Assembly: GCA_937120965.1 (NCBI GenBank)
Contig: CAKZKA010000045.1
Location: 1 to 60,697 of the forward strand
Direction: 5' to 3'
Source of the DNA: an uncultured Chloroflexota bacterium
Lineage (GTDB): Bacteria; Chloroflexota; Chloroflexia; Chloroflexales; Chloroflexaceae
Length of the DNA stretch: 60,697 nt
The position numbers were made by a program, and so were the translations under genes. Shown piece after piece: positions 26,698 to 42,934 of this stretch (position 1 is its first letter; each line of letters opens with the position of its first letter). A model generated the notes under the pieces. That model searched no databases. It was given only the letters and a program-made list of their open reading frames with translations, and was not told the origin of the DNA.

Positions 26698-26704
26698 GGT
26701 ATCT

Positions 26705-27885: not shown

Positions 27886-28950
27886 TCAACCCTGTTTGCC
27901 CGACTGGTCGGCGGCTTTCCTGGCAGCCTCGGCGGCCTTCTCCGCCGCCCCAGTGGCCTTCTGCGCGGCCTGCTCAGCCGTCTTGCCAGCGCTCGCAGCG
28001 GCGCTCGAGGCCGCCCCGGCAGCAGTCTCGGCGGCTTTGCCGGTAGCCTCAGCGGCCTTCTGCGCGGTCTGCTCGGCCGTCTTGCCAGCGCTCGCAGCGG
28101 CGCTCGAGGCCGCGCCGGCAGCAGTCTCGGCGGCTTTGCCGGTAGCCTCAGCGGCCTTCTGCGCGGTCTGCTCAGCCGTCTTGCCGGCAGTCGCGGTGGC
28201 GCTCGTCGCCGCGGTTGCGGCGCTGGCCGTTGGAGCGGGCGGTGCGTTGCGGACGGTCTTCTTTGCCTCGTCGGTGTCGTTGGTGGTGGTCACCCGGATG
28301 CGTCGGGGCTGGTCACGCCCGCCGTTGCCCCCTTCGAGGCTGCGGCCACGCTCCCCAAGCACCGCGTCGGTCAGTTCACGGCCCATACGGAACAGCTCAT
28401 CGGTCTGGAAGCGCGTCCAGTAGCTGTAGAACTTCCAGACATCGGTGAAGGTGGCGCGGGCCTCGCGGGTAAACTGCTCCAGGCCCTGAGGTGGCAGGGC
28501 GCCACGAATATACGACCGGATCAGGTATCCGATCGGCTGCACCACACCCTCAACCGGAGGCAGTGGAGCGCTGGGGGTTACCGCCGTTTCCGGACGGGGC
28601 GTCGCCGGTGGGGGGGCGGATGCCTCGGAAGGCTTCCCTGCCGCGAAGGCCCGATAGGCGCCCGTTCCTCCGGGCGGGGTATAGGTGGGTGTGGGCGGCG
28701 TATAGCTCGGTCTAGAAGGGGTGTACCCCGCGGTGGGCGGAGCATAGCCGGGTGCAGGAGCGGCAGCGCCATAGGCCGGCGCAGCGGCGCCGTAAACCGG
28801 TGTCGGGCGGGCCGGCGGCGGCGCAAGCGGGGCGCCCACTTCAGCCCCTGGCCCGTAGTCGGGCACTTCTTCGTCGAGATTCAACCATTTCCGCACGAAG
28901 TCGGGCAGCCAACTGTATGAGCCGCTCGGAGAACCATACTTGTCGGCCAT
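27886..28950 (-). CDS. Chlorosome-locus protein with amphipathic 33-residue repeats
   Basis: 354 residues from ATG 28950 with GGAAACG upstream. Residues 1-60 are charged and aromatic (YSWLPDFVRKWLNLDEEVPDY), followed by a P/A/Y-rich low-complexity stretch (PVYGAAAPAYGAAAPAPGY). A conserved-looking helical core follows (VVQPIGYLIRSYIRGALPP, then FTDVWKFYSYWTRFQTDEL). The C-terminal 100 residues are alanine-rich repeats of 33 residues beginning AGKTAEQTAQKAAEATGKAA. A period of 33 (three 11-mers) is typical of apolipoprotein- and LEA-like amphipathic helices that lie on lipid surfaces. I know no named family for it. It may coat the chlorosome monolayer; this is inferred from its repeats and location. 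Confidence 0.7.
   Translation of the reverse strand: MADKYGSPSGSYSWLPDFVRKWLNLDEEVPDYGPGAEVGAPLAPPPARPTPVYGAAAPAYGAAAPAPGYAPPTAGYTPSRPSYTPPTPTYTPPGGTGAYRAFAAGKPSEASAPPPATPRPETAVTPSAPLPPVEGVVQPIGYLIRSYIRGALPPQGLEQFTREARATFTDVWKFYSYWTRFQTDELFRMGRELTDAVLGERGRSLEGGNGGRDQPRRIRVTTTNDTDEAKKTVRNAPPAPTASAATAATSATATAGKTAEQTAQKAAEATGKAAETAAGAASSAAASAGKTAEQTAQKAAEATGKAAETAAGAASSAAASAGKTAEQAAQKATGAAEKAAEAARKAADQSGKQG
27981..28178 (+). repeat. Tandem 99 bp direct repeats inside the repeat-protein gene
   Basis: Two nearly identical 99 bp units at 27981-28079 and 28080-28178, with the phrase tcttgccagc at 27981 and 28080 and tcttgccggc at 28179. Each encodes 33 residues. The near identity of the DNA shows recent expansion or homogenisation. 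Confidence 0.85.
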
Positions 28951-29008: not shown

Positions 29009-29893
29009 CTAGCCCAGGGCGAAGATACTGCGGCGCTGGCGCAGATACGGCGCGAAGCAGAAATCAATGATCTGGCTCAAATCATCGCCAGGGTACCGCC
29101 GGTCAAGGGTTACAATCGCGTCGAGCACGTAGGCCACCTGGTCGGGCGGCGTTTGTGGACTACAGCGCACCAGGTTGCTGATCAGTTGGCGTCGCAGCTC
29201 CAGACTGTAGCGCAGCGACGTGACGGCCAGTTTATTAAGCAGCGCGTCGCGCCGGTCCAGATCATCGGTGGCGCGTCGGAGCCAGCGCGCCAGTCCCAGG
29301 CGTTCGCTCTTGTCCAGGTAGTAGTTGACCAGATCAACCAGGCCGACATCGTTGGTGATCTGCATCATCTCGTGCCAGCGTTTTTCGAAAGGCTGGTGGG
29401 TGAACGCCGGCAGGGCGCAGAGCTGGGCAACCAGGTTGCTGGCGGTGTAGTAGGGTTCACGCTCGAAGGTGCGGATCAGACCGGCTTCGCGTTCGGCGAG
29501 GAGCGACACCGCCTCGCGCACCACGCCATCGCTCTCGTCGTAGCCGCCGGCGCGCAGGTGCATCTCGTGGGCCAGCTCGTGCAGCGCGATACCAATGCTG
29601 CCGTCCTCGTCCCAGCGGCCCAGACTGACGAAGGAGCCGCTGCGAGGCGAAAAACTGCCGCTATCGGTCCACGGACCGGAAGGTTTAGCGCCTTCCAGGG
29701 CCTCGAAGGTCAGGCGCTCGTTCAGAATCTCGGGGGCCATTGCGGCGCCCCACATCTGCGTGGTGAGCCGGCGCACCTTCCGCGCCATCCGCGCAGGCTG
29801 ATAGCGGTGCTCGCCAACCATCAGCACCTGATTGCCGGCTTGATCCATATCGATCGCCACCTGCTGGCCATTGGCTCGAAGTAGCAGTTGCAT
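29009..29893 (-). CDS. HExxH-containing putative zinc metalloprotease-like protein
   Basis: 294 residues from ATG 29893 (a TTG at 29899 is an alternative). The clear feature is IALHELAHEMHLR, with the HELAH zinc motif at residues 105-109; the motif is preceded by a hydrophobic strand. A later EAVSLLAEREAGL (residues about 128-140) could supply the third ligand as in ExxxE gluzincins. The N-terminus is beta-rich and the rest is helical with no signal peptide, so it is probably cytoplasmic. I do not recognise the family. It sits 20 bp from an alpha/beta hydrolase gene within the csmA operon direction. CsmA is made as a precursor, so this is a candidate processing enzyme, by inference only. Confidence 0.65.
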   Translation of the reverse strand: MQLLLRANGQQVAIDMDQAGNQVLMVGEHRYQPARMARKVRRLTTQMWGAAMAPEILNERLTFEALEGAKPSGPWTDSGSFSPRSGSFVSLGRWDEDGSIGIALHELAHEMHLRAGGYDESDGVVREAVSLLAEREAGLIRTFEREPYYTASNLVAQLCALPAFTHQPFEKRWHEMMQITNDVGLVDLVNYYLDKSERLGLARWLRRATDDLDRRDALLNKLAVTSLRYSLELRRQLISNLVRCSPQTPPDQVAYVLDAIVTLDRRYPGDDLSQIIDFCFAPYLRQRRSIFALG

Positions 29894-29913
29894 AGCCAAT
29901 CTCCGCCTCTGCG

Positions 29914-30882
29914 CTACCGCGCTCCACGCAAAAAGAGCCGCATAATCTGGATGACCTGTTCGGGAAGTTCAAACAGGATCAGGTGCCCGCAGCGGGGCAC
30001 CTCGAGGTACTGGCCGCTGGGGGCAAGCTGTATCAACTTGCGCCCCCCCGACGGGCGCATAATCGGGTCTCCTGCACCCGCGACGAGCAAGACGGGCCGG
30101 CGCACACTGCTGATTTGCTCCCCCACCGCCTCCAGCACCTCGCGGCGCGACAGTTCCCGCGCCGAGACACGCACCGCCTCCGGGTCGCAACAGCGCAGGC
30201 TCAGGGTCGCCAGTTTGACATCGCTGACCGGAGCGGTGTTCTTCGACAGCACGGCAAGGGCGTAGATGTAGGGGATCCACCACAGGCCCCGCCGCTCGAT
30301 TGGACGCAACACGCGGTTGAAGACCGTATCGAGTATCCCGGGGATCAGTGCCGAGGCGACCTTGTTGTACTGGAAGAGGGCGAAGTTGAAGAAGGCCAGT
30401 GAGCGCACCCGGGCCGGAGCATGCGCCGCGTAGTGCAGGGCCACGAAGGCCCCCAGGGAGAAGGCCGCCACGTGGTGCGGGGGCAGATCCAGCACCTCGG
30501 TCAGCGCCTTCAGGTCGGCGCTGAAACCGGCCACGGTGTAATCGCGACCGGGGTCACTGTCCGAGAAGCCGTGGCCCTTCAGGTCATAGGCGATCACCCG
30601 GTAGCCCGCCTGGGCCAGCGGATCGACGACGTGATGCCACCAGTACGAGGAGCAATCCCAGCCGTGAATGAGCACCAGCGGTTCCCCATCCTTCGGACCG
30701 ACGTCCATGTAATGATGGGTCACACCGCGCACGTCCACGAAGCGCGCCCGCTCCATGAGCCGGAGTTCGGCTTCGAGGCGTTTGCGCTCGCCAGCGCTGA
30801 GCTTGCCGGCAAGTTTTGCCTCCACCTCAGCTTTGTAGGTGGTGTACTTGGCGGTAGGCGCCACGTGTGACGTTACGCTCAT
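29914..30882 (-). CDS. Alpha/beta hydrolase in the chlorosome locus
   Basis: 322 residues from ATG 30882. A charged 60-residue N-terminal helix region (LSAGERKRLEAELRLMERA) precedes the hydrolase fold. Strand 3 and the oxyanion loop appear as LVLIHGWDCSSYWWHHVVDPL, followed by VIAYDLKGHGFSDSD. The nucleophile elbow is AFSLGAFVALHYA (serine), the acid is in VAGAGDPIMRP and the histidine is in VPRCGHLILFELP. The triad is complete, although the usual first glycine of the elbow is alanine. BchO-type hydrolases occur in other phototrophs, but I cannot assign this one. It is 20 bp upstream of the HExxH gene and 45 bp downstream of the degenerate ArsA gene. Confidence 0.75.
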   Translation of the reverse strand: MSVTSHVAPTAKYTTYKAEVEAKLAGKLSAGERKRLEAELRLMERARFVDVRGVTHHYMDVGPKDGEPLVLIHGWDCSSYWWHHVVDPLAQAGYRVIAYDLKGHGFSDSDPGRDYTVAGFSADLKALTEVLDLPPHHVAAFSLGAFVALHYAAHAPARVRSLAFFNFALFQYNKVASALIPGILDTVFNRVLRPIERRGLWWIPYIYALAVLSKNTAPVSDVKLATLSLRCCDPEAVRVSARELSRREVLEAVGEQISSVRRPVLLVAGAGDPIMRPSGGRKLIQLAPSGQYLEVPRCGHLILFELPEQVIQIMRLFLRGAR

Positions 30883-30927
30883 GGCCGTCTCTCTCCGCAC
30901 ACGCCAGCCGGGGGCCGGCGAGGCGGC

Positions 30928-32034
30928 TCATTCCACCCAGAGCCGGAGGATTTCGCCTTCCACCCGCGCGCGCAGGCGCCCCCCCTCGGCGATACCCGGC
31001 AACAGGATGTGGCGGCGCTGCTCGCCCAGCCGCACCACCACCTCTTCGCTCACCAGGGCCAGGTCGAGGCTCTTGGGATCCATAAAAGGAATGTAGAGGC
31101 GCACTTCCCGTTCGCCCACGGGCGGGCGGGTCGGCGCGTGCGGGCTGTAGATATCGCCATCGCGGTAGAGAGCCGCGCCGCGCAGGGCCCAGGTATCGCG
31201 GTCGGTGGGGCGGGTGGGCAGCGGCCCCACCCGCAGATGGGGGCGCACGTTACCAGTCTCGGGCGAGAAATCGCGCCGTGAGGCCTCGTCAACCTCGCTC
31301 AGCTCACCGGCGACGATCAGGTCGTCCATCGCCAGGCCGTGGAAACCCAGGGCCATGAGCGCCTGGCGCACCGCCGGCAGGTGGAGTTCCTCGGGCGTGA
31401 CCACCATGCGCACGCGCGTGCCGGTGACGCCGTCGAAGCGGGCGCGTTGCTCTTCGAGCATGACCCGCAGATCCTGAAGCGGGGCCAGCGCACTCGGCGC
31501 GATCAGCGTCGCCGGAATGAGCGATGTCTCCTGTGACAGTCGCGAGCGCCCGGGGCCGCGGTCAAGCCCGAAGACCAGCCGGATCAGCCAGCGCAGGCTA
31601 TCGGGCAGAGCCATCGAGCGAATGAGCGTATCAGGGGTCGGGCCGTCGAAAATGAGCAGATCGAAGCGTCCGGTCTGCCGCGCCCGGTCGGCCACCAGCA
31701 GCGCGGCAGTGGCATCCATACCAGCGAAGGCCGGCAGCTCTTCGGGGCCGATCTCGCGCAGACGAGTGACGAAATTGCCGCGCAGGGCGCCGCGCACCTC
31801 GTCCCAGCGCCCACCGATCTCCTCGATCGGGTTGATCTCCATAGCCGCCAGGTGCGGCTCCAGTTCGAGGGGGCGCGGACCGAGGCTCTGCCCGAGCAGC
31901 GCGCCAACGATATGCCCGGGGCCGACCGAGGCCAGCAACACGCGCGCGCCGCGCCGCGCTGCGTGGCAGGCCGTAGCAAGCGCCGCAGCGCTCTGGAGAA
32001 TGTTGTTATACGAGGTGAAGACCAGTATCCGCAT
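30928..32034 (-). CDS. Degenerate ArsA/Get3-family protein (pseudo-ATPase)
   Basis: 368 residues with the overall ArsA layout, but every nucleotide motif is altered. Where the neighbours have a P-loop GKGG(T/V)GKT, this one has TSYNNILQSAA at residues 7-17. Where they have (S/T)DPAHSLAD it has VGPGHIVGA, and where they have D(T/C)APTG(N/E)TLRLL it has FDGPTPDTLIRSM. The C-terminus (about 305-368, EVRLYIPFMDPKSLDLAL then RLRARVEGEILRLWVE) still resembles the HSP20-like domain of ArsA proteins. It is probably a non-hydrolysing partner of the intact ATPases. A diverged rather than dead NTPase cannot be excluded. The gene shows no frame damage. Confidence 0.8.
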   Translation of the reverse strand: MRILVFTSYNNILQSAAALATACHAARRGARVLLASVGPGHIVGALLGQSLGPRPLELEPHLAAMEINPIEEIGGRWDEVRGALRGNFVTRLREIGPEELPAFAGMDATAALLVADRARQTGRFDLLIFDGPTPDTLIRSMALPDSLRWLIRLVFGLDRGPGRSRLSQETSLIPATLIAPSALAPLQDLRVMLEEQRARFDGVTGTRVRMVVTPEELHLPAVRQALMALGFHGLAMDDLIVAGELSEVDEASRRDFSPETGNVRPHLRVGPLPTRPTDRDTWALRGAALYRDGDIYSPHAPTRPPVGEREVRLYIPFMDPKSLDLALVSEEVVVRLGEQRRHILLPGIAEGGRLRARVEGEILRLWVE

Positions 32035-32197
32035 TTGGGTGGTTGTCCACGACCCGCCGCCTGCCCTTGAGAATGAATCACGCGCGCCGGGCGGGCGTAG
32101 CTGGCGGCGCGCCGCGGCTGCGTGAGTGTCGGGTGGTCATACGACCGGTTAGGTGTGTGCGGAGCGACGCCTGACCCGCCCGGCCCAACCAGGCAGG

Positions 32198-33439
32198 CTA
32201 GGCGGCCTCGACCCGCACCTCGTCAGATCCCTCCACGAGCGGTTGGATGCGCTCCTCAACCGCTTCGCGGAACTCCAGGCGCAGCACCCCGTCTTCGTAG
32301 CGATGCTCGCCCAGCGTGCAGTTGTAGAGAATGCGGGGCAGGGCGATGGTGCGCTGAATGCGCCCCACCGACAGCGAGAGATCCGGCCCGCTGCGGGTCA
32401 GTTCGACCGTCTCTTCTTCATTGAGGAAGGGCAGGCGCATGCACAATTCGTACTGGCCGCGTTCCCCCTCGTTGTTCCACTGCTCCAGCCAGATCGGGCG
32501 CTCGTCGTAGAGCAGCGCGCCAGGATCGGCCGTTCCGAAGGTGGCCCGCCCGATGGCCTCGAGGGCTTTTACGCCGATGGGCTCCCCCTCCTGCAGCACG
32601 GTGCGGAAGATCGGCGTTGGCGCAAAACTGGCGTCAATCTCGCGCAGGTAGCCCTGTTGCAGGCGCACCCAGTAGTCGAAGTACGGGCCGAGATCGGCGC
32701 GCCGGGGCAGGATCTTGTTGACCATCACCGCGTCCACCAGCATGCCATAGAGATTGAGGAAGGTGTAGGCGCGGCGCGTCTCCAGCAGCGGCAGCCGTTC
32801 GGGATTAAGCACCAGGCGCAGCGAGATCTCCTGGCTGAGCAGGAAATTGGCCAGTTGCTCCATCTTTTCCAGCAGCGTCCCCACTTCCTGGAAGAAGCGA
32901 TCATCGGGCAGGTCGCGCTTAAAGGTGCGCGCGACATTGGCCAGGCCGCGGTAGACGCGGAAGAACTTCTTCCCGGCATCCCCGCCGATGATCATCTCCG
33001 GATAGGCCAGCAGCCGCAGGGTATTGCCGGTAGGAGCTGTATCGAGCACAATCGCGTCCCAGCGACCGCTCTGGGCTTCCTGCATCACCCGTTGCAGGGC
33101 GAGGATTTCGTCGAGGCCAGGCTGATTGGCCAGTTCTGCTGCTGTCGAGCGATCGATGCCCCGGTTGGCATAAGTTGAGGCGACAAACTGCTGGAAGCCC
33201 CCCAGGTTATGGCGCCACTCGTAGATCGTATCCACCTCCAGGCCATACAGCCCGGGGATAATCGGAGTGGGGCGGTCGCGGCTGATGGTCGTGCCCAGGG
33301 CGTCGGCCAGGGAATGCGCCGGGTCGCTGGAGAGCACGAGCGTGCGGCGGCCCATGCGCGCCAGCAGCGTCGCCGTAGCCGCCGAGATGGTGGTCTTCCC
33401 GGTGCCGCCTTTCCCCGAGTAGATGATGACACGCGTCAT
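32198..33439 (-). CDS. ArsA/Get3-family ATPase 1 of the chlorosome locus
   Basis: 413 residues. The deviant Walker A (signature lysine) SGKGGTGKTTIS is at residues 8-19, switch I in SSDPAHSLADALG near 37, and switch II in DTAPTGNTLRLL near 145. A C-terminal HSP20-like domain ends the protein (QYELCMRLPFLNEEETVEL, then GVLRLEFREAVEERIQ). Single-domain ArsA/TRC40 proteins act as dimers in targeting tail-anchored or hydrophobic proteins, or in arsenite efflux. No arsB, arsR or arsD is nearby and the location is between chlorosome genes, so arsenite transport is unlikely. It follows the PH-like gene by 86 bp and precedes its degenerate paralogue by 163 bp. Confidence 0.85.
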   Translation of the reverse strand: MTRVIIYSGKGGTGKTTISAATATLLARMGRRTLVLSSDPAHSLADALGTTISRDRPTPIIPGLYGLEVDTIYEWRHNLGGFQQFVASTYANRGIDRSTAAELANQPGLDEILALQRVMQEAQSGRWDAIVLDTAPTGNTLRLLAYPEMIIGGDAGKKFFRVYRGLANVARTFKRDLPDDRFFQEVGTLLEKMEQLANFLLSQEISLRLVLNPERLPLLETRRAYTFLNLYGMLVDAVMVNKILPRRADLGPYFDYWVRLQQGYLREIDASFAPTPIFRTVLQEGEPIGVKALEAIGRATFGTADPGALLYDERPIWLEQWNNEGERGQYELCMRLPFLNEEETVELTRSGPDLSLSVGRIQRTIALPRILYNCTLGEHRYEDGVLRLEFREAVEERIQPLVEGSDEVRVEAA

Positions 33440-33525
33440 ACGTCCCCTGACGGTAGGTTGGCCCTACGGGTACGCTTCGCCCCAACGCCGGGGGCGAAGC
33501 GCGCGTGTGGCGTGCTTAACCGACC

Positions 33526-34953
33526 CTACTCCTCGTACTTCCCATTCGTGCTGACACTGGTCGTTTCTGAGTCGCGTTCGACCCGGCTCACGGCGATCCG
33601 GCGCACCGGCGCCACCCGTGGCGTTTCCTGCGCTGGCAGTTCGGCTGGCGGATCCTCCACCGGGTCGTCCGCCGGTGGCCCGGCCTCGGGCGGGGAGGCC
33701 TGGGGCTCAACGCGCCGCACGCTGATACTGCGTCGCACCGGCTCGGGGCGCGACGGCGGCTCATCGGCTCGCTCCACGTGGATCGGTTGGCGCGCATTGG
33801 TGGGCATCGGCTCGGCCGGGGCATTGGCGTTCACCCGGCGCACACTCGAGCGCACCTGGATGCGCCGGGCCTGCGGGCTCTCAGCCTGAGGCTCGTCCAG
33901 CGGCTCGGCGAAGCGCACCGCCGCGCGCACCACCGGCCCCACGGGGGCCAGCGGGCCGCCCTCGGCTTCGTGTTGCGCCGCCACGTGGTAGAGGCCACGC
34001 ATGGCATTACGCCGCACCCGCGGATCCTGCAACCCGTTGACCAGTTCGGTCGCGCCACCCACGGCTTCGCTGGCCCGGCGCAGCCCGCGGGCCAGTTTGC
34101 GCGGCCCCTCGAGCATCAGGCGCAGCGAACGGCTAACCTCGTACATGCTCGGCTGCTCCGGCAGGGTTGGCAGCGGGCCTGCCGGGCCGGGCAGCGGCAT
34201 CGCTGGCGTGCCGCTACCGGCGGCCGCGGCGTTGCGCTGGCTCTCGTAGGAGGCGATCAGATTACTCGGGGTCTTCGGCGGTGTCAGGCTGGAAGCCGAC
34301 TCCTCACGCGAGCCGAACTGCCACCAGCGCCGGCGACGCGACGCACCGGCCTCTTCGCTCGGCGGGGGCGCGGTGGGCGGCAGCGGCTCGGGCGCAGTAA
34401 AGAACGGTTTGAGCGGCTGGCGCTCGACGACCGGAAAGCGCTCGACAAAGGCTGCCACCAGCTCCTCGCCGGCCAATCCGGCCACCACCTGGTCCCCCAC
34501 CCAGCGCACCATTTCGGCAAGCATGCTGACATCATCGGAAGGCATGAAATCCAGGGTGTTGATCACCAGCCGCTCGCCGGAGCCAGGCTCCTCAAACGAA
34601 CCGTTGATCGCCACCCGGCGCGTGCGCGGGGCCACCGGGGGCAGGCGGAAGGCCAGCGTAACCCGCCCGTGCCAGGGGTCCCAGGTTTCGACATCGACAA
34701 CGTCAACGTCTTTCCACTCGAAGCCATCCACCGTATCATTGAAAAAGCCGCGTGCCCAGGTGACCACGCGCCGGTCCGTGAGCACGACGAAGTCCGACAG
34801 AGCCAGGCCGCCGACGCGGCGGCGCTGCTCGTCCAGCAACACGCCGTCGAAGAGCGCGAGGAGCGTCTCGCCCTCCTCGAGCAGCCCGCGGTAGCGCAGC
34901 TCCTCAACGCTGGCCGCATTGACATTGACGCCGAGATACGGGCGAGTGCTCAT
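33526..34953 (-). CDS. Chlorosome-locus protein with PH-like N-terminus and motif-repeat tail (A)
   Basis: 475 residues. Residues about 15-150 look like a bacterial PH/YokE-type domain: LLALFDGVLLDE, then LSDFVVLTDRRVVTWARG and a run of beta strands. A helical middle (SMYEVSRSLRLMLEGPRKLA) precedes a disordered P/A/E-rich tail carrying four short basic motifs: RRIQVRS (363), QPIHVERA (389), RRSISVRRVEP (407) and RRIAVSRVERD (451). The N-terminus is related to the next gene upstream (DGVLLDE..RR..G..L.D). It is nine bp from that gene and clearly co-transcribed with csmA. It may correspond to a CsmO/P/Y-type chlorosome protein, but I cannot assign the symbol. Confidence 0.75.
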   Translation of the reverse strand: MSTRPYLGVNVNAASVEELRYRGLLEEGETLLALFDGVLLDEQRRRVGGLALSDFVVLTDRRVVTWARGFFNDTVDGFEWKDVDVVDVETWDPWHGRVTLAFRLPPVAPRTRRVAINGSFEEPGSGERLVINTLDFMPSDDVSMLAEMVRWVGDQVVAGLAGEELVAAFVERFPVVERQPLKPFFTAPEPLPPTAPPPSEEAGASRRRRWWQFGSREESASSLTPPKTPSNLIASYESQRNAAAAGSGTPAMPLPGPAGPLPTLPEQPSMYEVSRSLRLMLEGPRKLARGLRRASEAVGGATELVNGLQDPRVRRNAMRGLYHVAAQHEAEGGPLAPVGPVVRAAVRFAEPLDEPQAESPQARRIQVRSSVRRVNANAPAEPMPTNARQPIHVERADEPPSRPEPVRRSISVRRVEPQASPPEAGPPADDPVEDPPAELPAQETPRVAPVRRIAVSRVERDSETTSVSTNGKYEE

Positions 34954-34962
34954 AATTGTTCC

Positions 34963-36213
34963 CTAGTCTACACTCGTTACGGGCTCCACCCGTCCACCAG
35001 AATTGGACGTGCGGCGCTCATCAGAAGTCGTGCGATCCTCGTGGCCAGCGTCACCGGAGCCGCTGCGGGCGATGGGAAGGGCCGGTGACGCGCCTGAGGC
35101 GGCGCCACGACGGCGCAGGGGAATATCGCGCCGGTCGGGGAACGTAGTCGGGGCGCTCGGGGATACCCGTAGCGGCGGTTCGTGGCGCGCCGCGGCAGGG
35201 CTGCTGGCCGACGCCGGCGCAGCCGCGGGGGCGCCCCGGCGCCGCAGCGGGATCTCATGGTAGGTACGAGGCGCAGCCGCCTGTGGCGCCGCGGCTGCTT
35301 CCGCAGGCGCGGCAGCAGGACGTTCCTTTGCCGCCGGAGCCTCGGCCGGCGCCGTAGGAGCGGCCGCTGGCGCAGCAGCCCCTGCCGCCCCCGTCTGGCG
35401 ATTGATCAGACTCATCGCCATCTGCTGGGCCACAGGGTTACTTGCCACCGTCGTGATCAATTCGTTGATGGCGCGAACCGCATCAGCAAGATCACGCAGA
35501 CTGGTGCTGTTGAGGGCGCTCAGATCAAACGGTAGATCAGCTTCACGCAACGAGCGGCGCAGCGTATCCCACGCCGAGCGGGCGAGACGGCCCGCAGCGT
35601 AGACCTGGCCGGGAGGAAGACTTGCCGGGTCCTGATAAAAGGCGGGGAGCGGAGCGCTGGGCGCACTCGCGGCGGCGCCGAGCCAGCGATAGGGCGCCTC
35701 ACCGGGCCGTGGCCCGTCTGCGTGTCCGAAGATCTGCTCACTCAGCGCAGCGATCACTTCCGGGCCGGCGTCGCGCGCCTCGTACCCTGCTTCGAGCATT
35801 CCGCGGGCCGTTTCGCTGGCGGTGCGCAACAACTGCAGCGCGGCCTGCAGATCGGCCAGGGGCAGCAGGGTCAGGCTGAAACGCTGCTCGTCTTCATCGG
35901 GGGCGGCGAAGCGCAGGTGCACCTGGGCATGCAGCGGGTCGAGGCCGCTGCCCTGCACCTCGACGAGTTCGGCGAGGGGGAAGGCGCAGCAGAGGTGCCG
36001 CCCGTAGTCCCGCGCCCAGAGGACCACCCGCAGGCTGGTGAGCAGGCAGTAATCGTGCAACGTCGGCCCGCTCAGGCGCCGGCCGTTCTCATCGAGGAGA
36101 ACCCCATCGAGGGCCACGAGGACGTGCTCGTCATACTCAAGGACATTGAGGGCCTCGAGTTCGGCCAGATGCGCCGGAACGATCGTATGGCTGTGGTAGA
36201 GCAGACTGATCAT
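34963..36213 (-). CDS. Chlorosome-locus protein with PH-like N-terminus and motif-repeat tail (B)
   Basis: 416 residues from ATG 36213 (a TTG at 36225 would add four). Residues about 15-140 carry the PH-like pattern (VLVALDGVLLDENGRRLSG, HDYCLLTSLRVVLWARD). A helical middle follows (LRDLADAVRAINELITTVAS, NPVAQQMAMSLINRQTG), then an A/P-rich linker and a tail with EIPLRRRGA at 320-328 and DIPLRRRGA at 363-371. At 381-390 the tail reads IARSGSGDAG, almost the same as IARSGSGESG in CsmA at the end of its mature region. The gene lies 75 bp after csmA, behind a strong hairpin. No membrane segment is present. Confidence 0.75.
   Translation of the reverse strand: MISLLYHSHTIVPAHLAELEALNVLEYDEHVLVALDGVLLDENGRRLSGPTLHDYCLLTSLRVVLWARDYGRHLCCAFPLAELVEVQGSGLDPLHAQVHLRFAAPDEDEQRFSLTLLPLADLQAALQLLRTASETARGMLEAGYEARDAGPEVIAALSEQIFGHADGPRPGEAPYRWLGAAASAPSAPLPAFYQDPASLPPGQVYAAGRLARSAWDTLRRSLREADLPFDLSALNSTSLRDLADAVRAINELITTVASNPVAQQMAMSLINRQTGAAGAAAPAAAPTAPAEAPAAKERPAAAPAEAAAAPQAAAPRTYHEIPLRRRGAPAAAPASASSPAAARHEPPLRVSPSAPTTFPDRRDIPLRRRGAASGASPALPIARSGSGDAGHEDRTTSDERRTSNSGGRVEPVTSVD
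35044..35073 (-). other. CsmA-like IARSGSG motif in the PH-like protein B tail
   Basis: Encodes IARSGSGDAG. The paralogous stretch in csmA (36352-36381) encodes IARSGSGESG. At DNA level the two share a core of 16 identical bases, gccgctgcgggcgatg on the plus strand. Confidence 0.8.
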
Positions 36214-36230
36214 AGTGAGGTGCAAGGGAA

Positions 36231-36273
36231 CTGGATACAGGATACCTGCTCACGCAGGACACCCTGTATCCAG
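36231..36273 (-). other. Nested intercistronic hairpin downstream of csmA
   Basis: Perfect 11 bp arms CTGGATACAGG (36231-36241) and CCTGTATCCAG (36263-36273) enclose a second hairpin, CCTGC-TCAC-GCAGG (36245-36258). It lies between the csmA stop (36289) and the next start (36213), with no U tract. It looks like a 3' stabiliser or partial terminator that would raise csmA transcript levels over downstream genes. Confidence 0.75.
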
Positions 36274-36288
36274 GCCCCTACCCTCCTG

Positions 36289-36534
36289 CTACCGATTGAA
36301 GCGCGAACGAATGCGCTTCGGGCGGAAGCTGCCGACCTCGCGAGCGGTGTAGCCACTCTCGCCGCTGCCGCTGCGGGCGATGCCCGGATAGGCATTGCGG
36401 TTGATGTTCTCGACCGCGGCTGACGTCGCCTGCAGCGCGTTCGACACCCATTGCCAGTGGCCCTGGAACATGATGTCGCCGATCTGCGCGACCTGCGCCG
36501 ACGACTCCGAGAACCAGCCTCGTGTCACGGCCAT
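36289..36534 (-). CDS. csmA: Chlorosome baseplate protein CsmA (precursor)
   Basis: Bacteriochlorophyll a-binding protein that forms the paracrystalline baseplate of the chlorosome, next to the cytoplasmic membrane. 81 residues. Residues 5-51 match what I know of Chloroflexus CsmA: RGWFSESSAQVAQIGDI, then FQGHWQWVSNALQAT with the pigment-ligand histidine at residue 26, and ENINRNAYPG. The mature Chloroflexus protein has about 51 residues, so the basic tail from about residue 52 (IARSGSGESG to RFNR) should be a cleaved C-terminal propeptide. AAGGAGGTG precedes the ATG, near-consensus and stronger than its neighbours. One extra residue (Val3) lies near the N-terminus. Confidence 0.95.
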   Translation of the reverse strand: MAVTRGWFSESSAQVAQIGDIMFQGHWQWVSNALQATSAAVENINRNAYPGIARSGSGESGYTAREVGSFRPKRIRSRFNR

Positions 36535-36648
36535 GCGTACACCTCCTTAACCTAAATGGACACCCTATAGGCCACGGGGCAGCGCCCCGATAACCCCAGC
36601 CTGAGCGCGAGCAAGAACGGGCGGACGCCCACGCTACCGCGTGACGCC

Positions 36649-37848
36649 CTACGATCTCACCCCGTTCGCCGCGTAAAACGGGACGATCAGCCAGTCGCCG
36701 TCCATCTCGGCCTGGCCGGCCTCCTGGCCCGCCAGGCTGGTAGGCAGCGTGAGCACCCGTCGAAAATCGCCGATCTGGATCACCAGTTCATCGCCGTTCT
36801 GGAACAGATCAAGCTGGTTAACATCCGCAAACGGCAGCTTCAGCTTCACCCGATAGGTGCCATCGTGCAGCTTGCTGATATCCATTGGCGCCTCGCGGTA
36901 GAGCACCGCGGTCGGGTCGCTGTCGCCGTAGATGTCCCGCCCCATAACGCGCAACTTCTCCAGCCCCACCACCTCTTCGGCGTAGTAGGGCACCCGCCGG
37001 ATCGGCAGGGGCACGAATGACTGCTCGACGTCCTGGAGGTACCGTTGCTGGATCTCCTTCCAGTGGTTCAGGTAGCCACTGTCCTGATCCACGGGCAGGA
37101 TCTTGTTCACGACGACCATATCAACGGTCATGCCGTACATGGACAGGTACGTCAGTGCCCGCTGGCTCTCCTTGATAACCATCTTCTCCGGGTTCATCAC
37201 CAGGCGGATCGACGTCTCCAGGGGGTTCGCCAGCGTCTCGGTGACGCCCTCCATCTGCCGGAACAGATCATCCACCGCCTCGTACACCTCAGACGGCGCG
37301 ACCATCTTGCTCAGGCCGGGGGTGATCCGGCTCATCGGGCGGATCAGGGGCTTGATCAGGTACTTCTCCGCGCCCCGCAGCATCCCGATCGCCCACTTGA
37401 AGCTCTCCGGAGCCGACAGCAGCCGCAGCGTCTCGCCCGTCGGCGCGCAGTCGATGACCAGCAGGTCGTAGTCGCCCGCGTCTTTGTGCTTCTTGATCCT
37501 GATGAGCGGGAAGGCTTCCTCCATGCCCGGGAGGATACTCATCTCATCCGCCAGGATGCCCTCAACCCCCTGTTCGGCCATCAACTGCGAGAAGTGCTGG
37601 CGCACGATCCCCCAGTTCGACTCGATGTCGTGATAAATACTGACTTCCAGGGCGTGGAGCGTGGGCGTGATCGGCACCGGATCCGGGCCGAGCGGGCCTT
37701 CCAGGTCCAGCGAATCGGCCAGGCTATGGGCCGGGTCGGTGCTCATCACAAGTGTGCGCAACCCCATATCGGCGGCGCGCAGGGCTGTGGCTGCGGCGAC
37801 GCTTGTCTTGCCGACGCCGCCTTTGCCGGTGAAAATCAGGGTTCGCAT
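36649..37848 (-). CDS. ArsA/Get3-family ATPase 2 of the chlorosome locus
   Basis: 399 residues, first gene of the csm transcript. Signature-lysine P-loop TGKGGVGKTSVA at residues 7-18, switch I STDPAHSLADSLD near 36, and switch II DCAPTGETLRLLS near 129 are intact. The C-terminus is an HSP20-like domain (YRVKLKLPFADVNQLDL, then EMDGDWLIVPF). It is a paralogue of the ATPase at 32198-33439; both lack ars-operon partners. A GGAAAGG ribosome binding site precedes ATG 37848. The 114 bp to csmA include a small GGGGC-GCCCC type hairpin and a GCGGGC-type repeat fragment near 36590-36650. Likely role, by inference: delivery or assembly of hydrophobic chlorosome proteins. Confidence 0.87.
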   Translation of the reverse strand: MRTLIFTGKGGVGKTSVAAATALRAADMGLRTLVMSTDPAHSLADSLDLEGPLGPDPVPITPTLHALEVSIYHDIESNWGIVRQHFSQLMAEQGVEGILADEMSILPGMEEAFPLIRIKKHKDAGDYDLLVIDCAPTGETLRLLSAPESFKWAIGMLRGAEKYLIKPLIRPMSRITPGLSKMVAPSEVYEAVDDLFRQMEGVTETLANPLETSIRLVMNPEKMVIKESQRALTYLSMYGMTVDMVVVNKILPVDQDSGYLNHWKEIQQRYLQDVEQSFVPLPIRRVPYYAEEVVGLEKLRVMGRDIYGDSDPTAVLYREAPMDISKLHDGTYRVKLKLPFADVNQLDLFQNGDELVIQIGDFRRVLTLPTSLAGQEAGQAEMDGDWLIVPFYAANGVRS

Positions 37849-38492
37849 CGTTGCCTTTCCAGGTCGGAGCGCTCGACGAGTTGACGCGGGCGAGTATCAG
37901 GGGATTGGCCCCATAGCCGGGACCAGGGTTTTTGCTTAAATGCCAAAAGTATGCGGCAATAAGTACGGCCAGACGTCTGCTTGCTGTGGTGCAATAGTAC
38001 CATGTTTATCGGGCAGTGTCAACAAAAGTTGCTCATATGCATCAGGCCCGCCAAAGGCGCTCCCGGGGGCCAGATGGCGCACTAATGGCCTCTATCTTGC
38101 CCCTCTGCCCGGGTTGTGGCCGGCGCTCCTCCACGGTTGACCGGGGCCATGGCCCGCGCATACGCCGATGTTGGGAGCCAGCCGGCGCCGCTTCCGGCGC
38201 ATGTCGCGATGCTGTCATTGTCTTATTTGCAACGAGTGCTGTATCACGATGATGGCGATCCGCCGACAGGTGGAGGCGTGAGAGGCGACACCCTGCTCGC
38301 CCTGTCCGTCACAACCTGGTTGCCGCCCCCGCGGCGCATACCTTTCATCTGGTCTTGTAACGACCGCAGCGACGAGGTTATCCGCTCGCTCGTCGCCGGC
38401 AGGTGTGCATGCACAGCGGGCCGATGCGACCCATGGTACACTACTCTGAGCAACCTTGGTAGATGTGCAGAGTTAAACCTACGCAACTCGAA
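37849..38492. other. Divergent intergenic region with the csm promoter
   Basis: 644 bp between the ArsA-2 gene (minus) and the truncated haemoglobin gene (plus). It contains the strong minus-strand promoter at 37994-38022. The rest shows no repeat module of the kinds seen elsewhere and no RNA gene I could identify. A 126-residue open frame at 38116-38496 has no recognisable features and is not called. Confidence 0.6.
37994..38022 (-). promoter_or_regulatory. Strong sigma-70-type promoter for the arsA2-csmA transcript
   Basis: On the minus strand, a perfect TTGACA (38017-38022), a 17 bp spacer and TACTAT (37994-37999). The transcript should start near 37987, giving a leader of about 140 nt before the ArsA-2 ATG. 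Confidence 0.75.
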
Positions 38493-38924: not shown

Positions 38925-39060
38925 CCCCGGGCAGGGACGTTTAAGGGTGGACAGCACATCCGCGCCGGGAGGGCGCAGCCCTCCCAGGAAACAACCCGCC
39001 AGCGGGGAGGGTTTGGGAGGGCGCAGCCCTCCCAGGAACAAATATGTTCATTCTGGCATT
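38925..39060. repeat. Mosaic palindromic repeats (modules A and C, GGACAGAAC end)
   Basis: Begins with gtttaagggtggacagcacatc, an end of the GGACAGAAC family, then two GGGAGGGC-GCA-GCCCTCCC hairpins and cattctggcattgtgcggcg. The 423 bp gap 38889-39311 also holds a promoter at 39195-39224 and is otherwise unassigned. Confidence 0.75.
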
Positions 39061-39194
39061 GTGCGGCGTAGCCCCATGGATGACCGAAAGGAGAGGGTGC
39101 AGGTGGGTGAGGACCAGCAGCTCAACCGAATCTCTTCGCTCGGTTACGAATTGATCACAGATCATTCAGATCGCCTAACCAGGGCCTGCAGCCG

Positions 39195-39622: not shown

Positions 39623-41365
39623 ATGCCTCACACTACTGTGCGCCGTCTGGCCCTTGCTGGAGCGACCGCCACGCTGCTGGCGATTGCTTCCGGTGGTCTC
39701 GTAACCGCCACGCTGAGCGGAGCCGCCTGCCCGGGCTGGCCGCTCTGCAGCGGCGGCCTGGATCTGCGCGCCGGGCCGGCTGTCTGGATCGCCGCCGGTC
39801 ATCGGATCGCCGTGTTGCTCGCTGCGCTGCTTTCGCTCTGGGGTGCTGTCGTGGCCTGGCGCGCCCGCGCGCTTGAGACCTGGGCGCGCCTGCCGCTGCT
39901 GCTGGCCCCGCCGCTCGGCATGCTGCAAACACTCCTCGGCGCGCTGATCGTGCAGTTGGGACTCTTCGGCGCCGCCGATGTGTGGCACCTGGCGCTGGCG
40001 CTGCTCGTCCTGGCCTGCCAGGTGGTGCCGCTGGCCGTGCTGGCCCAACCCCGGGGTGAAGCGACCAGGCCGGGCGGGCGCGCCCTGCGCGAAGCCCGCC
40101 GTTTGCGCGCCCTGACCTGGTGGAGCGCTGGCGCAGCCGCGGTGCTGACCCTGGCCCTCAGCGCCCGGGCGGCTGCCGCCCCGATGACCAGCGCAGCCAC
40201 CTTCCTGCCCGTAAACTCCTTCGGCGCGCTGGCTATGGCCGGCGTGCTGGCAAGCGGCACCTTCTGGCAAACCTGGCGCTCGCGGCGCGCCGATCGCCTG
40301 CTGGTTGGCATAGCGGCGCTCCTGGCCGGGCTGATCGCCGCAGAGAGCCTGTTGCTGCTCCTGCCACCCACTGCGGCCGGCCTGGGCGTGGGTCTCGGCG
40401 CCCTGGTGTGGAGCACGGCCCTGGTCCTTGCCGTGCTGGTGGCGCGCCGCCCACTGCCGGTTGGCGCCCCGGCGCCCGTGGTCGCAGCCCGATCCGAGCG
40501 TCCTTCCCTGCTCAGCGACTACCTCAGCCTCACCAAGCCCAAGGTGATCTCCCTGTTGCTGGTGACCACCCTGGCGGCGATGTACATCACCGAGGCCGGC
40601 GCGCCATCGCTCTGGCTGGTGCTCTGGACGATGGTCGGCGGCTATCTGGCCGCGGGCGGCGCGGGGGCGATCAACTGCGCGTTTGACCAGGACATTGACG
40701 TGAACATGGGCCGCACCAGCCGCCGTCCGGTGCCCAGCGGGCGCATCGCCCCGCGCAGCGCCTTCATCTTCGGGCTGGTTCTCAGCCTTCTGGCTGTCGT
40801 CGTGTTGCTCCTCTTCACCACCCCCCTGGCGGCGCTGTTCGCTACCCTGGGCATCGTCTATTACGCCCTGTTCTACACCCGCTGGCTCAAGCGCAGCACC
40901 TGGCAAAACATCATCATCGGCGGCGGCGCGGGCGCGCTCCCGCCCCTGGTCGGCTGGACAGCCGTTACCGGGAACCTGAGCCTGGCCGCGGTGGTGCTCT
41001 TCGCGATCATTTTCTACTGGACGCCGCCGCACTTCTGGGCGCTGGCCCTGGTCAAGCAGAAGGATTATGCGCGGGCGGGTGTACCGATGCTGCCGGTGGT
41101 GGCGGGCGAAGCCGAGACCCGCTGGCAGATCCTGGTCTACTCGGTGCTCATGGTGGCGCTGAGTGGTTTGCTCACCGCAATCGGCGCGATGGGCTGGGTG
41201 TACCTCGGCGCGGCAGCCCTGCTCGGAGCGCCGTTTCTGCGCTACGCCTGGAACACCTGGCGCCGGGGGGATCAGGCCAGCATCTGGGGGCTGTACAAGT
41301 ACTCGTTGCTCTACCTGGCCCTGCTCTTCGCGGCCATGGTGCTGGATCGGGCGATCCTGAGGTGA
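39623..41365 (+). CDS. ctaB: CtaA-CtaB fusion (haem A synthase-like domain plus haem O synthase)
   Basis: 580 residues, about 16 membrane helices. Residues 1-285 resemble CtaA/Cox15: the extracellular cysteine pair in ACPGWPLCSGG (near 36-42) and haem-ligand type histidines in AGHRIAV and VWHLALAL are in the first half. The second half of the CtaA region has no histidine at all. Residues about 295-580 are CtaB/Cox10, the protohaem IX farnesyltransferase: SLTKPKVISLLL, INCAFDQDIDVNMGRT with the Asp-rich prenyl-diphosphate site, TRWLKRSTWQNIIIGG and YWTPPHFWALAL. The CtaB part looks complete. The CtaA part is likely half-active or structural. No separate ctaA is in the window. Confidence 0.88.
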   Translation: MPHTTVRRLALAGATATLLAIASGGLVTATLSGAACPGWPLCSGGLDLRAGPAVWIAAGHRIAVLLAALLSLWGAVVAWRARALETWARLPLLLAPPLGMLQTLLGALIVQLGLFGAADVWHLALALLVLACQVVPLAVLAQPRGEATRPGGRALREARRLRALTWWSAGAAAVLTLALSARAAAAPMTSAATFLPVNSFGALAMAGVLASGTFWQTWRSRRADRLLVGIAALLAGLIAAESLLLLLPPTAAGLGVGLGALVWSTALVLAVLVARRPLPVGAPAPVVAARSERPSLLSDYLSLTKPKVISLLLVTTLAAMYITEAGAPSLWLVLWTMVGGYLAAGGAGAINCAFDQDIDVNMGRTSRRPVPSGRIAPRSAFIFGLVLSLLAVVVLLLFTTPLAALFATLGIVYYALFYTRWLKRSTWQNIIIGGGAGALPPLVGWTAVTGNLSLAAVVLFAIIFYWTPPHFWALALVKQKDYARAGVPMLPVVAGEAETRWQILVYSVLMVALSGLLTAIGAMGWVYLGAAALLGAPFLRYAWNTWRRGDQASIWGLYKYSLLYLALLFAAMVLDRAILR

Positions 41366-41835
41366 AAATATGGGGAAACCGGGTTTCCCCACCTGCGGTG
41401 AGCCTGTCGAACCGCACCCCTGCCTGTGAGGGCGGCAAGCCCTCCCCACCGGGAGGGTCTGGGAGGGCGCAGCCCTCCCAGGAAACAACCCGCCAGCGGG
41501 GAGGGTTTGGGAGGGCGAAGCCCTCCCAAGAACAACAATAATATTTTCATTCTGGCGTTGTGCGCCCCGCGCATAGGGTCTGACGTGAAAGTATGGGGAA
41601 ACCGGGTTTCCCCACCTGCGGTGAGCCTGTCGAACCGCACCCCTGCCTGTGAGGGCGGCAAGCCCTCCCCATCGGGAGGGTTTGGGAGGGCGCAGCCCTC
41701 CCAGGAAACAACCCGCCACCGGGGAGGGTTTGGGAGGGCATCGCCCTCCCAAGGAACAATAATATTTTCATTCTGGCGTTGTGCGGCGCAGCGCATGCAT
41801 GGCTGAGGTGAATGGGGAAACCCGGTTTCCCCGCC
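41366..41835. repeat. Largest mosaic repeat array, two tandem full units
   Basis: The 601 bp gap contains two consecutive copies of the unit: GGGGAAACC-GGTTTCCCC hairpin, then cctgcggtgagcctgtcgaa, cttccc/ccctccccac segment, two GGGAGGGC hairpins and a cattctggcgttgtgcg segment. One copy starts near 41372 and the other near 41594; an extra GGGGAAACC hairpin is at 41814-41832. The two copies differ by only a few bases. Confidence 0.85.
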
Positions 41836-42927: not shown

Positions 42928-42934
42928 GCAGCCT

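Follow-up and report, generated by a model that had tools for sequence, protein, structure and literature searches.

Gene content of the csmA locus

The window, i.e., the whole stretch of 60,697 nucleotides analyzed here, carries the gene for CsmA, the main baseplate protein of the chlorosome, with which green bacteria harvest light, within a run of minus-strand genes. Their order is ArsA1, csmA, PHL1, PHL2, ArsA2 and ArsA3, with intergenic gaps of 114, 63, 9, 86 and 163 bp, respectively. We assigned the following features, from upstream to downstream:

37994-38022, minus strand: promoter-like TTGACA-N17-TACTAT, its second hexamer preceded by TG, by sequence match
36649-37848, minus strand: ArsA1 (399 aa), clade I in the tree, P-loop intact, ArsA_ATPase (PF02374, E 4.1e-91) plus α-crystallin domain (PF17886, 1.3e-21), Get3d-type
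36289-36534, minus strand: csmA, chlorosome baseplate protein (81 aa; PF02043, E 9.3e-26)
34963-36225, minus strand: PHL1 (420 aa), N-domain assigned to the PH type from its homology with PHL2, followed by a tail; PHL profile match 184.8 bits
35236-35259, minus strand: PHL1 tail motif HEIPLRRR
35107-35133, minus strand: PHL1 tail motif RRDIPLRRR
33526-34953, minus strand: PHL2 (475 aa), predicted PH-fold N-domain (about aa 1-165) from an AlphaFold2 model and its PH matches, plus long tail
33850-33867, minus strand: PHL2 tail motif RRIQVR
33712-33735, minus strand: PHL2 tail motif RRSISVRR
33583-33603, minus strand: PHL2 tail motif RRIAVSR
32198-33439, minus strand: ArsA2 (413 aa), clade II (support 100/100), Get3d-type ATPase, P-loop intact (PF02374, 4.1e-66; PF17886, 3.1e-16)
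30928-32034, minus strand: ArsA3 (368 aa), degenerate Get3d-type paralogue by motif loss (PF02374, 1.5e-19; PF17886, 3e-9)
29914-30900, minus strand: α/β hydrolase, BchO-related but under the BchO cut-off (TIGR03056, 100.6 bits vs 172.55); order conserved in relatives
29009-29899, minus strand: conserved protein with an invariant HELAH from a motif alignment, candidate metallopeptidase
27886-28950, minus strand: U354, conserved cluster protein without assigned family; order kept in most loci
26881-27582, minus strand: α/β-hydrolase/lipase-like
25978-26814, minus strand: α/β-hydrolase/lipase-like paralogue, absent from some relatives
24693-25874, minus strand: bchU, bacteriochlorophyllide d C-20 methyltransferase (TIGR02716, 490 bits)
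23669-24589, minus strand: bchK-type bacteriochlorophyll synthase, named from position, conserved order and the Chloroflexus cluster in the available part of PMC3150298
23120-23440, minus strand: csmM orthologue, approximate start; position, and similarity (124 bits) to a 97-aa protein that follows bchK in a compared locus (L061)
22541-22993, minus strand: csmN orthologue, approximate start; position, and 180 bits to a 145-aa protein in the same compared locus

These gene calls agree with the coordinates and arrangement given in a preliminary description of this DNA, i.e., csmA between intact ArsA-type ATPase genes, with two PH-like proteins, all on one strand. That description had ended the cluster at 30928 with ArsA3, but the conserved order continues with the α/β hydrolase, the HELAH protein and further genes up to bchU, bchK, csmM and csmN, and relatives keep the same order past ArsA3 as far as csmN. 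It had also claimed a single strong upstream promoter. The sequence TTGACA-17-TACTAT (38022-37994) fits the promoter pattern well, but such matches occur at chance level (2 in the region vs 1.0 ± 1.3 in shuffles), so that a single strong promoter is not supported. The HELAH sequence was identical in 28/28 aligned homologues; no Pfam family matched this protein, nor did a Pfam scan assign one to the csmM and csmN orthologues. For PHL1, an ATG at 36213 is the likely start. A polyketide-cyclase/lipid-transport-like gene lies farther downstream, at 20214-20777.

Architecture of the ArsA proteins

ArsA1, ArsA2 and ArsA3 all matched PF02374, the ArsA/Get3 ATPase core, and PF17886, a C-terminal α-crystallin domain, above cut-off; their architecture is that of Get3d/ArsA_HSP20 proteins. 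The earlier assignment to the ArsA/Get3 family thus stands for the ATPase core, but it had missed the α-crystallin domain. In TIGR00345, ArsA1 (248.5) and ArsA2 (205.7) scored over the cut-off and ArsA3 (61.7 vs 135) under it, and none of the three reached the NosAFP equivalog cut-off (ArsA1 141 vs 325). Weak Pfam and NCBIfam cross-matches of the ATPases pointed to ParA/MinD-class families. The best solved-structure match of ArsA1 was archaeal TRC40 (3zq6), and that of ArsA3 in the PDB was NosGet3d/All4481 (E 6.3e-22). ArsA1 and ArsA2 contain GKGGxGKT and retain both P-loop and switch I, whereas both the P-loop and the switch I Asp are gone from 8/8 ArsA3 rows, which bears out the initial description of ArsA3 as degenerate. 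The CxxC zinc motif was found in 0/80 single-domain rows. ArsA insert hydropathy was moderate.

Get3d proteins (NosGet3d/All4481 and AtGet3d) likewise combine an ATPase core with a C-terminal α-crystallin domain and lack CxxC, according to the available sections of PMC10248533. The ATPases described here differ in that several paralogues, one of them without a P-loop, share a fixed locus with csmA and the genes for PH-domain proteins; the same sections mention no linkage to csmA or PH proteins. They report that Get3d binds a tail-anchored protein in vitro and call the role of its α-crystallin domain unclear. With the eukaryotic/archaeal Get3-TRC40 pathway, ArsA1 has the ATPase core in common, but the ATPases here carry the α-crystallin domain and no CxxC.

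PHL proteins have a predicted PH fold and motif-bearing tails

PHL1 and PHL2 are homologous. As modelled by AlphaFold2 (pLDDT 86.4), the N-domain of PHL2 (aa 1-167) resembles PH domains, reaching a VIA Z of 11.7 across 107 residues; in Foldseek its best E was 1.2e-3, with no match at 1e-3 or better. The PHL N-domain is therefore predicted to adopt a PH fold (7-strand barrel plus C-terminal helix), in line with the label "PH-like" used before. Bacterial PH domains of the bPH_3 type (3hsa, 3dcx) share this fold (VIA Z 9.7-9.8, 16-17% identity). The PHL proteins differ from these in their long motif-bearing tails and in scoring below the Pfam bPH_3 threshold (PHL2 16.4 bits vs 23; PHL1 without a match).

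In both Chloroflexota and Chlorobi, the PHL tails contain repeated I-x-I/V motifs flanked by basic residues. The pattern [RK]x[IVL]x[IVL][RK] occurred 45 times in 30 non-redundant Chloroflexota tails (3.8 expected) and 56 times in 27 Chlorobi tails (4.2 expected). Motif density was 0.52-0.60 per 100 aa in PHL tails vs 0-0.12 in eight other cluster protein families. No motif was present in 4/59 Chloroflexota and 6/68 Chlorobi tails. The best-enriched patterns differ by phylum, bbbhxh ranking 1 in Chlorobi and 620 in Chloroflexota, and hphbb ranking 1 in Chloroflexota and 3313 in Chlorobi; the shared core alone ranks high in both. Few motifs were present in the RCI genome G281 (8 vs 2.3 with the loose pattern, 0 with the strict one), where 0/2 tails were significant alone. 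A read-through AlphaFold2 model placed a 3-residue strand at 1/3 motifs with low confidence, and another motif in a helix.

IXI motifs bind the β4/β8 groove of α-crystallin domains, as described in the available part of PMC6791718. Since the tail motifs resemble these known groove ligands, PHL may dock the ATPases. The α-crystallin domain of Get3d packs on the ATPase core, and the groove may therefore be blocked.

Distribution in Chloroflexota and Chlorobi

The preliminary description had proposed tracing the ATPases together with csmA across genomes. Among 400 Chloroflexota genomes, csmA, PHL, the ArsA1 clade (at least 696 bits) and the ArsA2 clade were all found in the same 22, although 21 of these 22 belong to one family and the survey hence covers few independent events. 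The opposite case that it had named, orthologues beside arsenic genes in chlorosome-free Chloroflexi, was seen for neither ArsA1 nor ArsA2 across the 378 genomes without csmA. Three of the latter are RCII phototrophs with PF00124 matches (G206, G353, G158), and PHL, clade I and clade II were absent from them. Each has one clade IV ArsA, G206 and G353 also have a degenerate relative, and G353 has a two-domain ArsA; separate two-domain ArsA proteins are also present in several relatives. G281 is an RCI genome without RCII (PF00223 34.2 bits, over cut-off; PF00124 none), and retains ArsA1-csmA-PHL1-PHL2 amid housekeeping genes.

In Chlorobi, the order is ArsA1-csmC-csmA-PHL-ArsA. Of 72 loci, all 62 with at least 2.5 kb upstream have a clade I ArsA upstream of csmA, and all 68 with at least 1.2 kb have PHL downstream; both were found in 6/6 diverged loci. 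The core order ArsA1-csmA-PHL is conserved in Chloroflexota and Chlorobi. Clade I (support 99/95) and clade II (100/100) each unite Chloroflexaceae, G281 and Chlorobi in trees that lacked plant or cyanobacterial Get3d rows and for which the program warned of long branches meeting, including ArsA3 and the clade II members of G281 and Chlorobi. The Chlorobi ArsA2 orthologue sits elsewhere in the genome, away from the csmA locus, and the ArsA gene that follows PHL is a member of clade IV, a clade also present in chlorosome-free bacteria. In C. ferrooxidans, a further clade I gene has bchU-like, bchK-like and radical-SAM genes as neighbors.

Co-occurrence and synteny in a second phylum thus uphold the proposed chlorosome link for ArsA1 and ArsA2, but not for ArsA3, which has relatives in csmA-negative phototrophs. 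A relative scoring 434 bits occurs in G410 (csmA status not scored), and five phototrophs, two csmA-negative and three with csmA not scored, have lower-scoring ones (184-207 bits). Judged by these similarities, ArsA3 is not chlorosome-exclusive.

A candidate chlorosome assembly module

The portions of the chlorosome envelope literature available to us describe the proteins, and we found no inserting machinery in them. Because the ATPase/PHL set is kept together beside csmA in two phyla, its members are strong candidates for chlorosome-building machinery. From sequence and predicted fold, we consider the locus to be probably a chlorosome-dedicated targeting and assembly module of Get3d type. 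ArsA1 and ArsA2 would form dimers in an ATP cycle. Chlorosome envelope proteins that are hydrophobic or prone to aggregation would be shielded by these dimers after synthesis in the cytoplasm and released where a new chlorosome is forming along the inside of the cytoplasmic membrane. PHL, which its PH domain would hold at this membrane or at the chlorosome envelope, might recruit the ATPases with several tail motifs bound in their α-crystallin grooves, and ArsA3, which has no P-loop, could serve as a pseudo-ATPase partner or as an adaptor.

The hydropathy scan of CsmA from this genome found no hydrophobic client-like segment, its maximal 19-residue hydropathy being 0.17 vs 1.85 for CsmM and 1.90 for CsmN. 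These hydrophobic proteins of CsmC/D type are the more likely clients, CsmA being a possible one. CsmA carries a C-terminal extension (..KRIRSRFNR) that is conserved in the alignment across groups. This extension is removed in the mature protein, possibly by the HELAH protein acting as a peptidase.

More tentatively, chlorosomes might be built by a Get3d pathway of their own that different phyla inherited together with the organelle. In this pathway, PH proteins at the membrane or envelope would act as multivalent receptors whose I-x-I/V tails clamp the α-crystallin domains of ArsA1 and ArsA2, and the ATPases would pass envelope proteins to the nascent monolayer. If true, such receptors would give the Get3d α-crystallin domain its missing function, with PHL as candidate partner and the tail motifs as binding mode. 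Moreover, the gene block, common to two phyla and to RCI and RCII phototrophs, names candidate genes for chlorosome assembly and provides new markers beside csmA for tracing chlorosome spread between phyla.

The ATPase chamber could instead load glycolipid, quinone or bacteriochlorophyll rather than protein for the growing chlorosome, with PHL marking the site. The low hydropathy of CsmA would fit, as would the C. ferrooxidans clade I gene that adjoins bchU-like and bchK-like genes, the lipase-like cluster genes and the polyketide-cyclase/lipid-transport-like gene. The available sections of PMC10248533 describe density consistent with phospholipid in the AtGet3d chamber, which its authors note was possibly carried over from purification. 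Get3 relatives of known function transport proteins, and we regard a lipid or pigment carrier as rather unlikely. That the ATPases are general chaperones for tail-anchored or photosynthesis proteins, in an operon with csmA for co-regulation only, would agree with Get3d in cyanobacteria and plants and with the clade IV paralogue in chlorosome-free relatives. The occurrence of clades I and II solely with csmA in the 400 genomes, their absence from the csmA-negative RCII phototrophs examined and the gene order preserved across two phyla make this quite unlikely. We find it very unlikely that ATPases and PHL act as a MinD/ParA-like system that positions chlorosomes at the membrane or distributes them at division: the ArsA fold falls within the ParA/MinD ATPase class, as in the weak cross-matches, and PHL joins a PH fold to a long repeat-motif tail, but the best matches are Get3/TRC40, with TIGR00345 far over cut-off, and the ATPases carry an α-crystallin domain. 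We know of no positioning ATPase with such a domain.

An arsenite-efflux role, suggested by the family name alone, has negligible probability: each protein has one domain (368-413 aa) vs two tandem ATPase domains in the pump, distinct two-domain ArsA proteins exist in several relatives, the cysteines number only 1, 2 and 1 in ArsA1, ArsA2 and ArsA3, with no CxxC, where pump ArsA requires three for metal binding, and, as first described, Pfam found no ars partner gene (arsB, acr3, arsD) in the cluster or in the 20 additional window ORFs that were scanned.

Relation to earlier ArsA classifications

An ArsA-type ATPase is likewise tied to the building of a non-bilayer intracellular organelle in gas-vesicle gvp clusters, according to the available part of Castillo and Saier 2010 (PMC2963123), but that protein is two-domain (mean 637 aa) and has other partner genes. 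The words "csm" and "photosynth" are absent from the text of PMC2963123. In the same part, ArsA Cluster 11 comprises four proteins, only from Chlorobi, Chloroflexus and Chloracidobacterium, i.e., from three chlorosome-bearing groups, and its authors judged orthology unlikely. The lengths of Cau4 (399 aa) and Cau2 (407 aa), from Clusters 8 and 11, agree with those of Chloroflexus ArsA1 and ArsA2, and record numbers 163845724 and 163845728 would place the two proteins at the two ends of a row of five consecutive genes.

A csmA gene block with three ArsA/Get3-family ATPases

The preliminary description had placed csmA between two intact ArsA-type ATPase genes, accompanied by two genes for PH-like proteins (PHL) on one strand. 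This order was confirmed, and the genes are listed here as transcribed.

Genes of the csmA block in transcription order
37848–36649, minus strand: ArsA1, first gene
36534–36289, minus strand: csmA, second, 114 bp after ArsA1
36225–34963, minus strand: PHL1, third, 63 bp after csmA
34953–33526, minus strand: PHL2, fourth, 9 bp after PHL1
33439–32198, minus strand: ArsA2, fifth, 86 bp after PHL2
32034–30928, minus strand: ArsA3, sixth, 163 bp after ArsA2

A strong upstream promoter had also been proposed; its match was not above chance. Beyond ArsA3 follow genes for an a/b hydrolase, the HELAH protein, one protein of no known family and two lipase-like proteins, up to bchU (TIGR02716 match, 490 bits). 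After bchU we found a bchK-type synthase gene and then orthologues of csmM and csmN. By published locus numbers, this order fits Chloroflexus aurantiacus, i.e., csmA Caur_0126, bchK Caur_0138, csmM Caur_0139 and csmN Caur_0140 (PMC3150298). The text of that publication places bchU, bchK and csm genes in the Chloroflexus cluster and does not contain the word 'arsA'.

Just upstream of the promoter-like site, a gene for a globin of bacterial type (PF01152, 38463–38888) reads away from the cluster. An ORF at 39623–41365 fuses a CtaA-like part (PF02628, below cut-off) to a UbiA prenyltransferase (PF01040). The window has interspersed intergenic repeats (e.g., about 38941–39165, 41426–41883 and 42855–43160), which show up as ORFs that repeat GRAAPSQTLP or GKPGFP-like peptides.

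Gene order and co-occurrence with csmA

Scanning named genomes for csmA gave 72 Chlorobi and 8 Chloroflexi loci, i.e., 80 of 100 confirmed places; the 20 left out may include Chloracidobacterium. The 72 Chlorobi entries are loci, not genomes: two (L154 and L164) come from one bin, and one with a Latescibacterota title (L139) looks like a misbinned Chlorobi contig. An ArsA gene of clade I, the tree group of ArsA1, preceded csmA on the same strand in each of the 62 Chlorobi loci that reach at least 2.5 kb upstream (68 of 72 overall), and csmC sat between the two in 70 of 72. PHL was found downstream of csmA in 68/68 loci with at least 1.2 kb downstream (69/72 overall), and a clade IV ArsA then followed in 68/72. 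PHL occurred in 52 of 218 Chlorobi-phylum genomes, where csmA was sought just around PHL in fetched loci. Seven PHL matches were weaker (130–144 bits); the six fetched all had the same gene order.

In Chloroflexaceae, ArsA1 was upstream in 21/21 loci for which csmA had been the criterion of choice (the window and L061–L080). Adding nine loci raised this to 30/30, with ArsA2 in 29/30 and ArsA3 in 27/30, but these nine (L084–L092) were fetched because of their ArsA matches and are hence no independent test of adjacency. Eight loci (L166–L173) partly repeat other Chloroflexaceae loci, and the PHL ORF of L084 was missed by the distance rule because its called start lies upstream of csmA. With the gene order kept in two phyla, a chance neighbourhood of ArsA, PHL and csmA is ruled out. 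In C. ferrooxidans, a second clade I ArsA gene lies among bchU-like, radical-SAM, a/b-hydrolase and bchK-like genes (L205, 2176–8723).

The expected co-occurrence of ArsA with csmA was surveyed in 400 Chloroflexota genomes and held for the ArsA1 and ArsA2 clades. csmA (profile search), the PHL domain, ArsA1-clade proteins at 696–742 bits and ArsA2-clade proteins (E 1e-95 or better, 710–776 bits) were each present in 22 of 400, the identical set of genomes. Six more genomes from two other families also passed the ArsA1 threshold (473–486 bits); the clade III model gave higher scores to the three of them that we examined, and these branched outside clade I. As 21 of the 22 csmA genomes belong to one family, they stand for few independent events. 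More can be learned from G281 and from three type II phototrophs that are csmA-negative, G206, G353 and G158. G281 has a type I reaction-centre match and no type II match, keeps ArsA1-csmA-PHL1-PHL2 among housekeeping genes and resembles the type I strain described as 'Ca. Chloroheliales' (PMC10972752). These three csmA-negative genomes carry one clade IV ArsA apiece, with a degenerate ArsA relative additionally in G206 and G353 and a two-domain ArsA additionally in G353. A third PHL protein of G281 (647 aa, 115 bits) is encoded away from csmA (L217, contig C2, 8350–10293).

Phylogeny of the ATPases

In the main ArsA tree (88 rows), clade I (99/95) joined Chloroflexaceae ArsA1, a G281 ArsA and the ArsA encoded upstream in Chlorobi csm loci. 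Clade II (100/100) comprised ArsA2, one G281 ArsA and Chlorobi ArsA from outside the csm locus. A second Chloroflexaceae paralogue (contig C55 type) and one G281 protein formed clade III (100/97), which is a weak candidate for chlorosome specificity, as it joins Chloroflexaceae with G281 only; three ArsA from other Chloroflexota families scored best on its model and branched just outside clades III and IV. Clade IV (100/100) took in the Chloroflexaceae C74 type, one G281 ArsA, the Chlorobi csm-downstream ArsA and all 17 rows from genomes without known csmA, nine of which are csmA-negative by profile in the 400-genome survey and eight outside that test (G405, G410, G413, G414, G416, G417, G419 and G422). 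Being shared with chlorosome-free genomes, clade IV is ruled out as chlorosome-specific. Two of the searches listed only some of their matches, and numbers per genome were therefore taken in place of rows.

The clade models told rows apart by wide margins, with the rows scored having partly built the models. The tree program flagged meeting long branches at ArsA3, at the outgroup and, within clade II, at the members from G281 and Chlorobi. A quick tree of 89 rows placed ArsA3, together with related proteins of other phototrophs, as sister to clade I (100) and gave clade I itself 90.

In Castillo and Saier (PMC2963123), Cluster 11 holds proteins of C. tepidum, Chloroherpeton, Chloroflexus and Chloracidobacterium only, and orthology within it was thought unlikely. 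The protein from Chloroflexus in this cluster agrees with ArsA2 in length and record number, and clade II therefore probably extends to a third phylum, that of Chloracidobacterium, going by the published table.

Get3d architecture and the degenerate ArsA3

ArsA1, ArsA2 and ArsA3 each matched the ArsA ATPase and ArsA_HSP20 alpha-crystallin domains above Pfam cut-offs, which by sequence is the architecture called Get3d. Arsenic resistance is rejected on domain count, cysteines and the neighbour genes scanned. Get3d structures have been solved from Nostoc and Arabidopsis, and their authors describe complete conservation of the protein across cyanobacteria and the green sulfur and nonsulfur bacteria; in vitro it binds tail-anchored protein, the role of the alpha-crystallin domain being called unclear (PMC10248533).

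P-loop and switch I are kept in ArsA1 and ArsA2. The third paralogue had been described as degenerate, and rightly so: ArsA3 has lost both motifs in 8/8 rows, its best solved structure match being Nostoc Get3d (E 6.3e-22). ArsA3 is ruled out as a chlorosome marker, as its relatives occur in phototrophs that are csmA-negative or outside the csmA survey. Such degenerate proteins were seen in type II phototrophs at six loci (L221–L226), the one of G410 (L223) being a close relative of ArsA3. These proteins point to a role of Get3d outside chlorosomes that does not depend on ATP.

PH-like proteins and their tail motif

PHL1, PHL2 and Chlorobi PHL are all homologues of one another, with D36, R46, D54, W66, R68 and F78 invariant in 15 rows. 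The PH-like assignment stood up to modelling: the PHL2 N-domain (78 sequences, pLDDT 86.4) was predicted to form seven strands plus a helix at the C-terminal end. The model matched PH and PH-like domains, bacterial ones included.

The PHL tails look disordered by composition. A motif spotted in them by eye was followed by enumeration of 11,520 reduced-alphabet patterns on non-redundant tails, each phylum scored separately against expectations from six shuffles. Basic-flanked hydrophobic-x-hydrophobic patterns ranked high in both phyla (bbhxhb: Chlorobi 2nd, Chloroflexota 19th; bxhxhb: Chloroflexota 15th, Chlorobi 28th). The very top patterns were not the same. Larger z-scores from a count in which related sequences were included were set aside. 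Examples are RRIQVR, RRSISVRR and EIPLRRR in the window and RRKKISIK and KKKIQIK in Chlorobi. Per protein, the motif was significant (p 0.01 or less) in 22/59 Chloroflexota, 36/68 Chlorobi and 0/2 G281 tails. In G281 the motif is weak. A CsmM-like protein (L061, 16902–17195) has a similar RSVPVRR near its start, RTLPARR in the window version.

Motifs of the I-x-I/V kind are described as binding alpha-crystallin domains in their beta4/beta8 groove (PMC6791718), and each of the three ATPases has a domain of this type. For docking we modelled a read-through at L068, where PHL2 tail and ArsA2 share one frame (pLDDT 66.4); its ATPase part matches Get3. Of the 211-residue lead that precedes ArsA2, only 120–122, where the third motif (RRIAV) begins, form a strand in this low-confidence model. 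Lead confidence reaches 50 only at residues 23–27, 49 and 120–122, with 23–27, the first motif, placed in a helix. The model is weak as a test of tail docking and does not name the partner.

Possible clients and the CsmA C-terminus

Get3 proteins carry hydrophobic helices as cargo. The ATPases had been proposed to deliver CsmA or other envelope proteins, and here the second part fared better. Peak hydropathy over 19 residues was 0.17 for window CsmA, too low for a classical tail-anchored client, but 1.85 for CsmM and 1.90 for CsmN. For Chlorobi we obtained 1.34 for CsmC, an intermediate value, and 1.31 for CsmA. Proteins of the CsmC/M/N type would hence be better clients, having hydrophobic segments that window CsmA lacks; CsmA could act as a less favoured client or as a partner at the site of delivery, and PHL might tether the ATPases to the membrane or the envelope. 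We consider it very probable that the module functions in chlorosome biogenesis in some form and somewhat probable that it works by protein targeting; docking of PHL onto the alpha-crystallin domains of the ATPases is a tentative proposal.

Among matches listed in the open-licence literature, we found no link between ArsA/Get3 and chlorosome assembly; reviews or book chapters on green bacteria may have noted the neighbourhood. The ArsA/Get3d family is known, and as far as searches of that literature show, the fixed module, its PH partner and the tail motif seem undescribed.

All 83 of 83 distinct CsmA sequences of Chloroflexaceae, G281 and Chlorobi, counting one CsmA-like protein (L201, 1910–2158), carry K-x-[IV]-x-S-[RK]-F at the C-terminus. 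The motif lies in the stretch that is removed from the mature protein and is a possible recognition signal. The HELAH protein (29009–29899) of the Chloroflexaceae csm cluster, for which no Pfam family matched, has HELAHE, then a histidine two residues further along and R-E later in the sequence, invariant in 28/28 homologues, and is a candidate metallopeptidase. As a universal CsmA peptidase it is rejected, none being seen at the Chlorobi and G281 loci examined. In C. thiosulfatiphilum (L201), a divergent ArsA gene (5806–6990) lies about 4 kb from the CsmA-like gene, which is presumably of the CsmE type.
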